DNA of 64,000 nt from Acidimicrobiaceae bacterium (lineage in GTDB: Bacteria > Actinomycetota > Acidimicrobiia > Acidimicrobiales > Aldehydirespiratoraceae): the NCBI GenBank assembly GCA_009837445.1, contig VXTM01000007.1, positions 1 to 64,000 on the forward strand. Reading direction: 5' to 3'. The notes below the pieces were generated by a model. It worked only from the letters and a program-made list of their open reading frames with translations, was not told the origin of the DNA and did no database searches. This document shows, piece by piece, positions 351-5,196 of this stretch. The position numbers were made by a program, and so were the translations under genes. Every line of letters starts with the position of its first letter. Within the stretch, counting starts at the first letter, position 1.

Positions 351-1346
351 TCAGGCTCGTAGGGCGGGGAGGACCTCGCGGCCCAGGAGCTCGACCGAGG
401 CGAACCAGCGGTCGAAGTTCATGCGCAGGTCGAACACCAGGTGCTCCACTCCCACGTCGGCGAATCGCCCGACCTGCTCGACCACCTCGTCGGGGGTGCC
501 GGCGATCAGCGAGCCCTCGATGTCCTCAGCGGTGGTGAAGCTGCCCGACGGGGGCTTGGCCCACCACTTGCCCCGCAGGTTGGCCCAGGCCAGCAGGCCC
601 TCCAGGTTCACCCCGGACACCGCCAGATCGTGGGTGGCCGCGATCGACGTGGGCGGGATCACCGCGACCGTCGGCATGGGCCGGCCGTTATCGGCGGTCA
701 TCGCCTGCATGGTGGCCACCCGCTCGGCGATGGTCAGCAGCGTGGTGCGGCCCGGCATCCAGCCGTCGCAGTACTCGGCGGCCAGACGGGCTGAGCGGGG
801 CGTGGCCCCGCAGTACCAGAACGGCACCGGCGCACCCGGCTTGGGCTCGATGGAGATGTCGTCGAACGAGTACACGTCGTCGCGGTAGGTCACCCCGTCC
901 TCGGTCAGCAGCCGGCGCAGGATCTCGGCGTTGGACCGCACCAGTCCGACCCGGTCGACCCCAGCCATGTCGATCACGTCGAACTCGTGGTCGAAGGTGC
1001 CCGCACCGAAGCCCAGCACCACCCGGTCACCCACCAGGCTGCACAGCGTGCCGATGCTGATGGCGGTGTGCACGGGGTGGCGGAACGGGATCAGCGAGCC
1101 CGTGCCCAGCGTGATGTTCTCGGTGACCGCCCCGATGGCGGTGAGGGTGGTGAGGGCCTCGTAGAAGGTGATGTCGGCCGCCTCCATCTCGGCGTGGGGC
1201 TCGAACACCAGGTGGTCGCGCACCCACAGCGAGTCGAAGGCGAAGCTCTCGGCCAGCACCGCCCCGTCGAGCACGGCCCGGCGGCTGGCATGGCCCCCGA
1301 AGTGAGGCATCAGCAGGCCGAACTTCATATCCGAGGTGTCGGTCAT
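351..1346 (-). CDS. LLM-class (luciferase-like, probably F420-dependent) oxidoreductase
   Basis: 331-aa ORF; FGLLMPHFGGHASRRAVLDGAVLAESFAFDSLWVRDHL and luciferase-like barrel motifs. Confidence 0.85.
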   Translation of the reverse strand: MTDTSDMKFGLLMPHFGGHASRRAVLDGAVLAESFAFDSLWVRDHLVFEPHAEMEAADITFYEALTTLTAIGAVTENITLGTGSLIPFRHPVHTAISIGTLCSLVGDRVVLGFGAGTFDHEFDVIDMAGVDRVGLVRSNAEILRRLLTEDGVTYRDDVYSFDDISIEPKPGAPVPFWYCGATPRSARLAAEYCDGWMPGRTTLLTIAERVATMQAMTADNGRPMPTVAVIPPTSIAATHDLAVSGVNLEGLLAWANLRGKWWAKPPSGSFTTAEDIEGSLIAGTPDEVVEQVGRFADVGVEHLVFDLRMNFDRWFASVELLGREVLPALRA

Positions 1347-1356
1347 CGCGTCCTCC

Positions 1357-2748
1357 TCACAGTGTGGGGCGGGCGTGGCAGCCCCAGCCGGGCTCGCCCA
1401 CCACCTTGCGGTCGACGTACACGTCGCGGCCCCGCACGAGCGTGCGGTGGATGCGGCCCTTGGTGATCCGGCCGTCGTAGGCGGTCCAGCCGCACTTCGA
1501 CAGCACGGTGTCGGCCGAGTGGCGGGTCTGGTCGGCCGGGTCGAAGATCACGATGTCGGCGTCGTAGCCGGGTCGCAGGAACCCCTTGGAGGGCAGCTTG
1601 AACTCGGTGGCCGGCTCCTCGGCCACCACCTCGGCCACCCTGGGCAGCGAGATCATCCCGTCCATCGAGCAGTCCAGCAGCATGGGGTACTGCTCCTGGA
1701 CGCCGGGGGTGCCGGTGTGGCAGGCCCAGCAGTCCTCCCAGCCGATGTCCTTCTCGGCCCGGGTGTGGGGAGCGTGGTCCGAGGACAGCATGTCGATGGT
1801 GCCGTCGTTGAGGGCGCCCCACACCGCCTCCCGATGGTGGTCGGGCACCCAGTACGACAGGGCGTAGGGGCCGAGCTCCTCGATGTCGCGCCACCGCGAC
1901 AGGAACAGGGCCCAGTGGTTGACCTCGCAGCTCACCGGCACACCCCGCTCCTTGGCCCGCCGCACCAGCTCCACCGACCCCTCGGTCTGCATGTGCACGA
2001 TGTGGAGCTTGGTGCCGGTGGCCTCGGCCATCTGCAGGATCACCGCGATGGCGGCGTCCCAGATCAGCCCGTTGTGGGTGGCCAGGGTCTGGGCGTAGGC
2101 GGCCGGGCTGCGATCGCCCCGGTCCCAGTGCGACTGCTCGGTCACGTCCATGATGGCCTGGTCGTGAGGGTGGATCATGAACGGCAGCCCGGTCGGGCCG
2201 ATGGCCTCGAACATGCGCAGCAGATGCCCGTGGTCGTGGATGCCGGTGCCCGAGGGATGGGGGTAGTCGCGGCCGGTGTCGACCACCATGTAGATCTTGA
2301 AGGCGGCCACCCCGGCGTCAGCCATGGGCTGCACCTCGTGCAGCACGCTGGGCACCGGGTTGTGGTTCCAGTCAACAATGCTCTTGGTGTCGTAGAGGTC
2401 GAACAGCTCCTCGAGCACCTGCAGGTTCTTGGTGACCGGGTTGAGGTTGGGCATCCCGAACACGGTGGTCACCCCGCCGGCCGCGGCCGCCGCGGTGCAG
2501 GTGCTGATGTCCTCCTTGTGGACGTAGCCGGGCTCGCGCAGGTGCACGTGCACGTCGACCATGCCGGGCAGCACCCACTTGCCGGTGGCGTCGATGCGCT
2601 CCACCGAGTCCGGAAGCGGGATGGTCCCGGGGGCGGCGATGGCCGCGATCTGCTCGCCCGCGATCAGCACGTCGGCGTCCTGGGTGCCCGTGCCCGACAC
2701 CACGGTGCCGCCGGCCACGATCCGATCGACGGTGGGAGAACCAGACAT
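1357..2748 (-). CDS. Dihydroorotase/hydantoinase/allantoinase-like amidohydrolase
   Basis: ORF trimmed to MSGSPTVDRIVAGGTVVSGTG; GKWVLPGMVDVHVHLREPGYVHKED and SSDHAPHT metal-binding motifs. Confidence 0.85.
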   Translation of the reverse strand: MSGSPTVDRIVAGGTVVSGTGTQDADVLIAGEQIAAIAAPGTIPLPDSVERIDATGKWVLPGMVDVHVHLREPGYVHKEDISTCTAAAAAGGVTTVFGMPNLNPVTKNLQVLEELFDLYDTKSIVDWNHNPVPSVLHEVQPMADAGVAAFKIYMVVDTGRDYPHPSGTGIHDHGHLLRMFEAIGPTGLPFMIHPHDQAIMDVTEQSHWDRGDRSPAAYAQTLATHNGLIWDAAIAVILQMAEATGTKLHIVHMQTEGSVELVRRAKERGVPVSCEVNHWALFLSRWRDIEELGPYALSYWVPDHHREAVWGALNDGTIDMLSSDHAPHTRAEKDIGWEDCWACHTGTPGVQEQYPMLLDCSMDGMISLPRVAEVVAEEPATEFKLPSKGFLRPGYDADIVIFDPADQTRHSADTVLSKCGWTAYDGRITKGRIHRTLVRGRDVYVDRKVVGEPGWGCHARPTL

Positions 2749-2795
2749 CAGGGGGCCCCGAGGGGGGCTGTCATCGGCGGAGTCAGCATGGGCGG

Positions 2796-2807
2796 ATTGT
2801 ATACAGA
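2796..2807. promoter_or_regulatory. GTATAC palindrome, divergent intergenic
   Basis: ATTGTATACAGA between 1357- and 2843+ genes. Confidence 0.6.
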
Positions 2808-2842
2808 CGGCGGCGGACGCCCGGGGCGCATAGGATCCGCGC

Positions 2843-3319
2843 ATGACTGAGCCCGCACTCCCCTTCGAGACGTTCATGGCGCAGCACGGGCCGCTGGGGG
2901 ACCTGATCGGCCGGATCGACGAGTCCATCTGGGAGAGGTCCGCGGTGAGCCCGGTCCTCAAGGAGCGGGCCCGGATCGCCAGCGCCGAGTCCCTCGGATG
3001 CGACTATTGAATCACCTTCAGGACGGTCCGGTCGGGCCACCAGATCCTCGACGACGAAGCCGCCATGTCAGCCGATCCTGACCAGCGTCGACGCCTGGAG
3101 ATGGTGGAGCGCTACACCCATGAACTCGTCGCCAACCGGGGAGCGGTCGACGACGAGCTGACCCTGGAGATGCAGCAGATCTTCACCAAAGCAGAGTTCT
3201 CCGACCTGCTGTTCACCATCTGCTACCACATCGGAATGCAGTACGTTGGAAGAGCCATGCACTGGGACGATGCCTGCCCGGTGCCGTGGCTGCGCGAGGC
3301 GGTTGAGGCCGCCGGCTGA
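2843..3319 (+). CDS. Carboxymuconolactone decarboxylase/AhpD-like protein with in-frame TGA at 3008-3010 (candidate selenocysteine; otherwise pseudogene or sequencing error)
   Basis: ATG at 2843 in the same frame as the 3065-3319 ORF; translation MTEPALPFETFMAQHGPLGDLIGRIDESIWERSAVSPVLKERARIASAESLGCDY[TGA]ITFRTVRSGHQILDD...FTKAEFSDLLFTICYHIGMQYVGRAMHW reads as one CMD-like domain across the TGA. Confidence 0.65.
3021..3041 (+). promoter_or_regulatory. Candidate bacterial SECIS-like hairpin downstream of UGA
   Basis: GGUCC(3025-3029)-GGUC loop-GGGCC(3034-3038): 5-bp stem (one U-G), apical loop G about 20 nt after the UGA. Confidence 0.45.
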
Positions 3320-3344
3320 CCCGCCAGCGGCAAGCAATTCGCCA

Positions 3345-4295
3345 CTAGTCGGGGTCCTTGACCAGCAGCTCGGGCGGGTCGGCCAGGGTGCTCTGGTGCA
3401 CTTCTACCGACCCGCCGGTGAAGTGGGTGCGGTACCAGTCGACCATCTGGGGGATCACCGCGTCGCCGTACTGCTTATAGGCCGCGTAGTGGGTGGTGTG
3501 GCGCTGCATGACCAGCTTCTTGGGGGCGTTGGCCCGCTCGTAGAGGCGCTCGGCGTGGTCGGTGGGGGTGGTGGCGTCGTCGGCGACCGCGATGATCATC
3601 AGCGCGGCCGGGGCCACCTGGTGGACCACGTCGATGGGCCGGTAGTCCATGATCGCCTCGGCGCAGCGCAGCGGCACCGACGACGGGATCCGGTCGTCGA
3701 CGTCGGCCTTCACCTTGGAGGCCCGGCGCTCGGGGGTGGGGACCATGATGTCCTCGCGGGGATGGACCATCTCGCCCTCGCCGGTGAGCACCCGCCGGTT
3801 GCGGTCGGCGTCGAGGCGGGCCAGGAACTCGTACCACTCGTACTCGCGGCGCATCCGCCGCAGCCAGTCCTCGCCGTCGGCCACCGGCACCTGCGACACC
3901 GCGGCCCGCACCCGGCGGTCGGCCGCGGCCAGCAGCACCGCGTTGCCCCCGCCGGTGCCGCCGCTGCCGAACACCCCGATGTTGTCGGAGTCGACGTCGT
4001 CGCGGGTGCACAGGTAGGTGACCGCGTTGATGAGGTCCTCGAGCTGGTACTGGGGCAGCAGGATCCCCCGGTCGCCCCCGGAGTCGCCGAAGCCCCGGTA
4101 GTCGAAGATCAGCACATGGAAGCCGGCCGCAGTGAGGGCCTCGTGGTAGGGCAGGTACAGCTTGGCGTCCTTGAGCCCGAGCCAGCCCGGCCCCTGCACG
4201 ATGGCCGGCGAAGGGCCGGCGACCACGTCGGGCGAGCGGAGCAGCCCGCTCAACTTGACACCCTCGCTGAAGAAGTCAACCTGGGTCTCGTGCAC
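3345..4295 (-). CDS. Alpha/beta hydrolase
   Basis: GTG start VHETQVDFFSEGVKLSG; VLIFDYRGFGDSGG, GVFGSGGTGGGNAVLLAAADRRVRA. Confidence 0.75.
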   Translation of the reverse strand: MHETQVDFFSEGVKLSGLLRSPDVVAGPSPAIVQGPGWLGLKDAKLYLPYHEALTAAGFHVLIFDYRGFGDSGGDRGILLPQYQLEDLINAVTYLCTRDDVDSDNIGVFGSGGTGGGNAVLLAAADRRVRAAVSQVPVADGEDWLRRMRREYEWYEFLARLDADRNRRVLTGEGEMVHPREDIMVPTPERRASKVKADVDDRIPSSVPLRCAEAIMDYRPIDVVHQVAPAALMIIAVADDATTPTDHAERLYERANAPKKLVMQRHTTHYAAYKQYGDAVIPQMVDWYRTHFTGGSVEVHQSTLADPPELLVKDPD

Positions 4296-4347
4296 GGTCG
4301 TCTCCCTCCCGAGCCCGCCCGATTTGAGCCCGATCAGAACCCTCAGT

Positions 4348-4359
4348 ATTGTATACAAT
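4348..4359. promoter_or_regulatory. GTATAC palindrome, divergent intergenic
   Basis: ATTGTATACAAT, perfect 12-bp palindrome. Confidence 0.7.
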
Positions 4360-4446
4360 GGCGGGCGCCGGGGATTCCGACCTCTCCCCGGCGCCCCTTC
4401 CATTCCGGACCCGTCGTGCAGCAGCCGAACCATTAGGAGCAGTGTC

Positions 4447-5196
4447 ATGGCCGACCTGATGTCCCACAGTGATTTCCGAGTGGCTCTCGAGGAGGCGTTC
4501 TCCGGCACGATGGCCAAGGACGCCTCCTTCAGCCGGGCCTGGGCCACCGGCAAGCTCCACAAGGAGCACTTCGTGCACTGGGCCACCAACCACTACCACT
4601 ACATCGGCCCGTTCGGCGACTACCTGGGCCTCATGTACGCCAACACGCCCGACCACGCCCGCGACGCCAAGGACTTCCTGCTGCAGAACATGTACGAGGA
4701 GGAGCTGAGCGACGACCGCCACACCGACCTGCTGATCCGCTTCGCCGAGGCGTGCGGCGGGACCCGGGCCTACGTGCAGGACCGCAACAACGCCATGCCC
4801 TTCGCCAAGGGCATGCAGGGCTGGATGTACTACGTGTCGGGCCGGGAGAACTTCGTGGTGTCGTCGGCCGCGCTGATCGTCGGCCTGGAGTCGCAGGTGC
4901 CGTCCATCTACCGCACCCAGTACCCGACGCTCATCAACAAGTACGGGTTCTCGGAGTGGGAGGCGGAGTTCTTCGACCTGCACATCACCTCCGACGAGAT
5001 CCACGGCGAGCGGGGCTACCAGATCGTGCTCAAGTACGCCGACACCCCCGAGCTCCAGCAGCGCTGCCTGCACTACGTGCGGGAGGCCGCCGACATGCGC
5101 TTCGCCTACACCAAGGCGCTTTACCAGACGTATGTCGAGCCCGACCTCGGCCCGTGGGTGGAGGAAGACGAGCGCGAGCCTGCGCTTGTCGGCTGA
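4447..5196 (+). CDS. TenA/PqqC/CADD-like heme-oxygenase-fold (putative diiron) protein
   Basis: NMYEEELSDDRHTDLL and EFFDLHITSDEIHGERGYQ resemble E-x(n)-H ligand motifs of HO-like diiron enzymes. Confidence 0.75.
   Translation: MADLMSHSDFRVALEEAFSGTMAKDASFSRAWATGKLHKEHFVHWATNHYHYIGPFGDYLGLMYANTPDHARDAKDFLLQNMYEEELSDDRHTDLLIRFAEACGGTRAYVQDRNNAMPFAKGMQGWMYYVSGRENFVVSSAALIVGLESQVPSIYRTQYPTLINKYGFSEWEAEFFDLHITSDEIHGERGYQIVLKYADTPELQQRCLHYVREAADMRFAYTKALYQTYVEPDLGPWVEEDEREPALVG

Follow-up and report, generated by a model that had tools for sequence, protein, structure and literature searches.

The window analysed here is the whole stretch of 64,000 nucleotides, which corresponds to bases 1-64000 of contig 21 of a 3.9 Mb genome that is 93.8% complete. 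A plasmid origin was rejected, as a tblastn search against plasmids gave no matches. Close to the beginning of the window lies a gene that was originally predicted to encode a selenoprotein, with one reading frame that runs from the ATG at 2843 through the open reading frame at 3065-3319 and is split by a lone TGA. Translation showed that both the coordinates and the sequence are correct, since the TGA at codon 56 (3008-3010) is the single internal stop in 2843-3319. It is found in the context ...ESLGCDY*ITFRTVRSGHQILDD..., and readthrough generates the motif GCDY-U-ITFR, which is of the CxxU type. The features of the locus are the following.

1357..2748, minus strand: amidohydrolase (Pfam Amidohydro_1; dihydropyrimidinase-like by inspection), divergent from the selenoprotein coding sequence, with synteny in the orthologous loci L021 and L022
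2843..3319, plus strand: predicted CMD/AhpD-like selenoprotein coding sequence of 158 amino acids with Sec at residue 56; start ATG 2843, true stop TGA 3317-3319
2963..2965, plus strand: codon of Glu41, which aligns with the Glu preceding the CxxC of Streptococcus pneumoniae AhpD (HMMER alignment with 6e8l)
2999..3001, plus strand: TGC codon of Cys53, the putative resolving or partner Cys of CxxU, invariant in alignment A1
3008..3010, plus strand: in-frame TGA, predicted to be read as selenocysteine (Sec56), at the second position of C53-x-x-U56; kept in L021, L022 and L023
3025..3038, plus strand: upper hairpin of a predicted SECIS, GGUCC-GGUC-GGGCC, with the loop GGUC at 3030-3033, with 5/5 pairs kept in four sequences
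3345..4295, minus strand: alpha/beta hydrolase of the Peptidase_S15 type, syntenic in L021 and L022; a hydrolase close to the orthologue in L023 shares 30% identity with it

The candidate selenoprotein gene stands alone on its strand, with the amidohydrolase and the alpha/beta hydrolase on either side, and this gene order is kept in L021 and L022. In L023 the neighbouring genes are different and include those for the E2 component of a 2-oxoacid dehydrogenase, for an ABC transporter and for a hydrolase. Because the neighbourhood has changed in L023, the genomic context does not fix the substrate. Positions 351-5193 of the window also hold genes for a luciferase-like monooxygenase and a heme-oxygenase-like protein (Haem_oxygenas_2/TENA) in addition to the amidohydrolase and the S15-type hydrolase. 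The whole group, which looks like a catabolic cluster, is conserved in L021 and L022.

The conservation of the gene was explored in three further loci from independent assemblies, L021, L022 and L023, which encode the same protein at approximately 93, 87 and 67% identity, respectively. The nearest orthologues belong to Acidimicrobiia assemblies. In all three orthologues the TGA occupies the same codon. Substitutions were counted by the method of Nei and Gojobori, separately for each side of the TGA. Between the window and L021, dN was 0.024 and dS 0.341 before the TGA, with 0.023 and 0.322 after it; the dN/dS values for L022 were 0.045/0.627 before and 0.084/0.487 after. For L023, dN was 0.215 and dS saturated before the TGA, and the corresponding values after it were 0.155 and 1.37. 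With dN far below dS, the gene is under purifying selection on both sides of the TGA, which bears out the initial view that random decay is less likely.

These data also settle a point that the original prediction had left standing, namely that a TGC or TGT codon had been mutated or misread as TGA. One base change would suffice for this, and the window by itself could not exclude it. The identical TGA is, however, found in independent assemblies, even in an orthologue with no more than 67% identity, which excludes a one-base mutation or a sequencing error confined to a single assembly. Together with the purifying selection downstream of the TGA, this makes a pseudogene or a sequencing error exceedingly improbable. 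Just as improbable is an arrangement of two separate genes, the first for a 55-residue peptide terminated by the TGA, the second for a protein of 84 residues with ATG 3065 as its start, as might be suggested by the fact that ORF 3065-3319 is open and starts with an ATG. This ATG is replaced in both L022 and L023, and its lack of conservation excludes two separate genes. Moreover, codons 57-64, which would be noncoding in such an arrangement, are conserved at the amino acid level, and the TGA falls within the CMD core, which covers residues 23-59 according to Pfam and 24-134 according to the 6e8l alignment. Conservation and the dN and dS values together rule out a pseudogene, a sequencing error, UGA as an ordinary stop and a split gene with its second part beginning at ATG 3065.

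The window protein scores under the cut-off of every curated Pfam/NCBIfam model tested. It reached 18.2 bits with Pfam CMD (PF02627; cut-off, 23) and 15.5 bits with NCBIfam ahpD_dom (cut-off, 27.8), and TIGR01926, NF041238 and NF041047 gave no matches to it at E<=1. A profile built from the four orthologues and used with hmmsearch matched S. pneumoniae AhpD (6e8l; E, 9.5e-7) and also the CMD protein SMU.961 (3lvy). An AlphaFold model of moderate confidence (pLDDT, 65.9) was compared with known structures using Foldseek, and the top 28 matches were AhpD/CMD proteins or their relatives, the best with E values of 0.008-0.01. By profile and by fold comparison with this model, the window protein belongs to the AhpD/CMD superfamily.

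The two best profile and fold matches, 6e8l and 3lvy, allow the residues to be compared. Glu41, Cys53 and Sec56 line up with the Glu and the CxxC of AhpD, which places the TGA at the second redox Cys, as had been proposed. In contrast to the window protein, 6e8l and 3lvy carry Cys instead of Sec and keep a His (GH) where the window protein has FR. AhpD is a peroxidase that is reduced via lipoyl proteins, and the His located four residues after its second Cys is part of a proton relay. In the window protein this position is taken by Arg60, which is invariant in alignment A1, and an Arg is also found there in distant CxxC/CxxU relatives. This is different from the AhpD-like selenoproteins (COG2128/TIGR01926; NF041238; the distant AhpD homologue NF041047), which have CxxU and the all-helical AhpD fold in common with the window protein, but with His rather than Arg four residues after Sec. 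L004, which is encoded in the same genome and is an AhpD-like selenoprotein of the classical type, keeps this His (CHYUTVHH). The CMD/AhpD-like identity assigned at the outset is, thus, correct at the level of the superfamily but goes no further: given the score below the Pfam CMD cut-off and the absence of the relay His, "AhpD-like" fits this protein and "AhpD" does not.

The residue found at the TGA column was analyzed in 29 more distant homologues of the same class. Cys (CxxC) was present in 17 and TGA (CxxU) in 12, so that all 29 have Cys or Sec, as anticipated for this column, and no other residue was observed; the CxxC was part of the profile used in this search, which favours Cys/Sec matches. 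Like the query, the other CMD proteins of the class (L027-L055) show a C-x-x-C/U-x-x-x-R pattern, and those measured are approximately 21-28% identical to it. They differ from the group of the window protein, which is all Sec (4/4 members found). A tree of 35 sequences requires at least six changes between Cys and Sec, two of them forced by well supported branches, but because its branches are very long and few of its forks are strong, the number and the direction of these changes are uncertain. The gene was present in 2 of 15 other genomes of the same genus, which are probably those of L021 and L022. No Cys-form orthologue of the subfamily was found in 396 genomes of the class, 120 relatives and 149 relatives of the L023 genome, these sets being partly overlapping. 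A separate CMD subfamily with the motif C-x-Y-U-GVQRSV was observed in several genera of the class (L042, L045, L048, L049, L051, L053 and L054), with Cys forms (CGYCAAQRSV) in other genera, an apparent Cys/Sec exchange within that subfamily.

A gene for a selenoprotein calls for selA, selB, selC and selD in the same genome, and all four were found. SelA is encoded on the window's own contig (C21:107300-108337; 307.6 bits), with SelB close to it on the same contig (SelB-wing_3 match; TIGR00475 at 300 bits over the cut-off). The tRNA-Sec has the anticodon UCA and scored 68.3 bits. SelD scored 359.6 bits and has an in-frame TGA of its own, in GAGUGCK, and is itself a selenoprotein. SelA was also found in the genomes of all three orthologues.

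Other selenoprotein genes are present in the genome. A UGSC-family selenoprotein gene (L016:1981-2823, on G000:C21; PF24696, 8.7e-50) lies approximately 5 kb upstream of selA, with an in-frame TGA in IGDUGSCSSG. A molybdopterin oxidoreductase similar to FdhA (G000:C42:35239-36510; 246 bits) contains one in-frame TGA. Two further CMD/AhpD-like selenoproteins are L004 (G000:C6:49699; CHYU; TIGR01926, 135.8 bits) and L006 (G000:C10:54096; CHIU). The UGSC, FdhA-like and two CMD CxxU genes support active use of Sec in this genome, and the selenoproteome as counted is a lower bound.

Since the column is frequently Cys in homologues, an unusual tRNA might instead insert Cys, or some other amino acid, at the UGA. 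The complete selABCD set and the other selenoproteins of known families in the same genome argue against this (the search of the tRNAs for UCA anticodons was non-exhaustive). The same is true of the distribution of SelA, present in all but one of 15 checked homologue-bearing genomes besides the window's own; the exception, G311, has the Cys form. We consider this alternative decoding very unlikely. We put at roughly 95% the probability that the product of the gene is a small AhpD/CMD-superfamily selenoprotein, with the UGA at 3008-3010 specifying selenocysteine.

The original prediction also included the hairpin GGUCC-GGUC-GGGCC, starting 14 nt past the TGA and with its loop at about 20 nt, as an element of the type recognized by SelB. 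The hairpin is present, with a stem at 3025-3029/3034-3038 (GGUCC/GGGCC) that includes one U-G pair and starts 14 nt downstream of the TGA, and with the loop at 19 nt. In bacterial SECIS elements, a G is found early in a small loop located 16-37 nt after the UGA. The GGUC loop agrees with this, although hairpins like this one often arise by chance. The pairs are kept in all of the TGA-bearing orthologues, where L022 has a single change, from U-G to U-A, and no two-sided covariation was observed in the stem among the four orthologous sequences. When the gene is compared with L023 in segments of 24 nt, the closest matches (up to 23/24) are those right after the TGA, over the hairpin. The letters of the loop are shared by two other Sec CMD genes (GGUCU in L004 and GGUC in L044).

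The folding energy of the hairpin is no better than that of shuffled sequences (z = +1.0). A generic hairpin of the same type was found after 56% of the in-frame positions in neighbouring genes, and one with a short loop containing GGU after 7% of them. The proposal of a SelB-type element stands in so far as the hairpin shows conservation and is compatible with a bacterial SECIS. With its ordinary stability and high random occurrence, however, the hairpin is weak evidence alone, and its use as stand-alone proof was rejected. At the sequence level, this short (5 bp) hairpin is consistent with a SECIS, in tests limited to four orthologues. Because the hairpin alone is weak, the case for a selenoprotein rests on the conservation and the sel genes.

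From what was computed (UGA readthrough, the Sec machinery, the Cys/Sec exchange at the column and the superfamily), we infer SelB binding, a catalytic cycle and a substrate as follows. SelB would bind the hairpin, whose start lies 14 nt past the UGA, and the hairpin would direct the decoding of the UGA as Sec by the organism's own SelA, SelB, tRNA-Sec and SelD. In the product, C53-D-Y-U56 would form a redox pair. AhpD and related CMD redox enzymes provide the analogy for its mechanism: Sec56 would be the stronger nucleophile of the two and would attack a peroxide or another electrophilic or disulfide substrate. Cys53 would then resolve Sec56 as a selenenylsulfide, which a cellular thiol or lipoyl system would re-reduce. 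On this analogy the protein is most likely a thiol- or lipoyl-coupled peroxide or disulfide reductase, and a role in peroxide or disulfide reduction may be regarded as reasonably probable.

A selenoprotein with another reaction is unlikely by comparison. It could be an enzyme of the reductive dehalogenase type, like the CMD protein Bmp8, which is among the fold matches, or it could serve the neighbouring amidohydrolase and hydrolase genes. The Arg60 in place of the relay His points in this direction, and so does the synteny with the amidohydrolase, the alpha/beta hydrolase and the luciferase-like monooxygenase in L021 and L022. The neighbourhood of L023 is, however, different, save for a hydrolase that is broadly of the same family, and a substrate cannot be read from similarity of fold. 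It is also rather doubtful that this Sec-only, Arg-for-His CMD subfamily is restricted to a few Acidimicrobiia and carries out a selenium-dependent reaction distinct from that of the known AhpD-like selenoproteins, in which case it would count as a separate selenoprotein family.

That AhpD-like selenoproteins are known from metagenomic surveys, as stated in the original prediction, agrees with the literature. CxxU-containing selenoproteins of the CMD-domain and AhpD-like kinds have been on record since a 2005 study of the Sargasso Sea (PMC1088965), and surveys and reviews that came after it also include them (PMC2398784, PMC1794560, PMC9312934, PMC13188914), with CMD selenoproteins listed under PF02627 (PMC9312934, PMC13188914). 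The window protein has the superfamily, the predicted Sec at the second CxxC position and a putative bacterial SECIS hairpin in common with the published CMD CxxU proteins (PMC1088965). It differs from them in falling below the PF02627 cut-off, in a comparison made via the PF02627/NCBIfam models rather than with the published sequences. A literature search on selenoproteins and Acidimicrobiia gave nothing relevant by title and abstract. As CMD/AhpD selenoproteins of the CxxU type have been in the literature since 2005, the protein belongs to a kind of selenoprotein that is already known, within which it represents a new and rare subfamily, rather than to a new type of system.

Standard annotation would report this gene as a truncated 84-residue ORF or miss it. 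With its recognition, the CMD/AhpD selenoproteins of the CxxU type gain a rare group made up of Sec forms only. Moreover, an actinobacterial class with many CMD proteins that have Sec or Cys at one position is a good setting in which to compare both residues in closely related enzymes.
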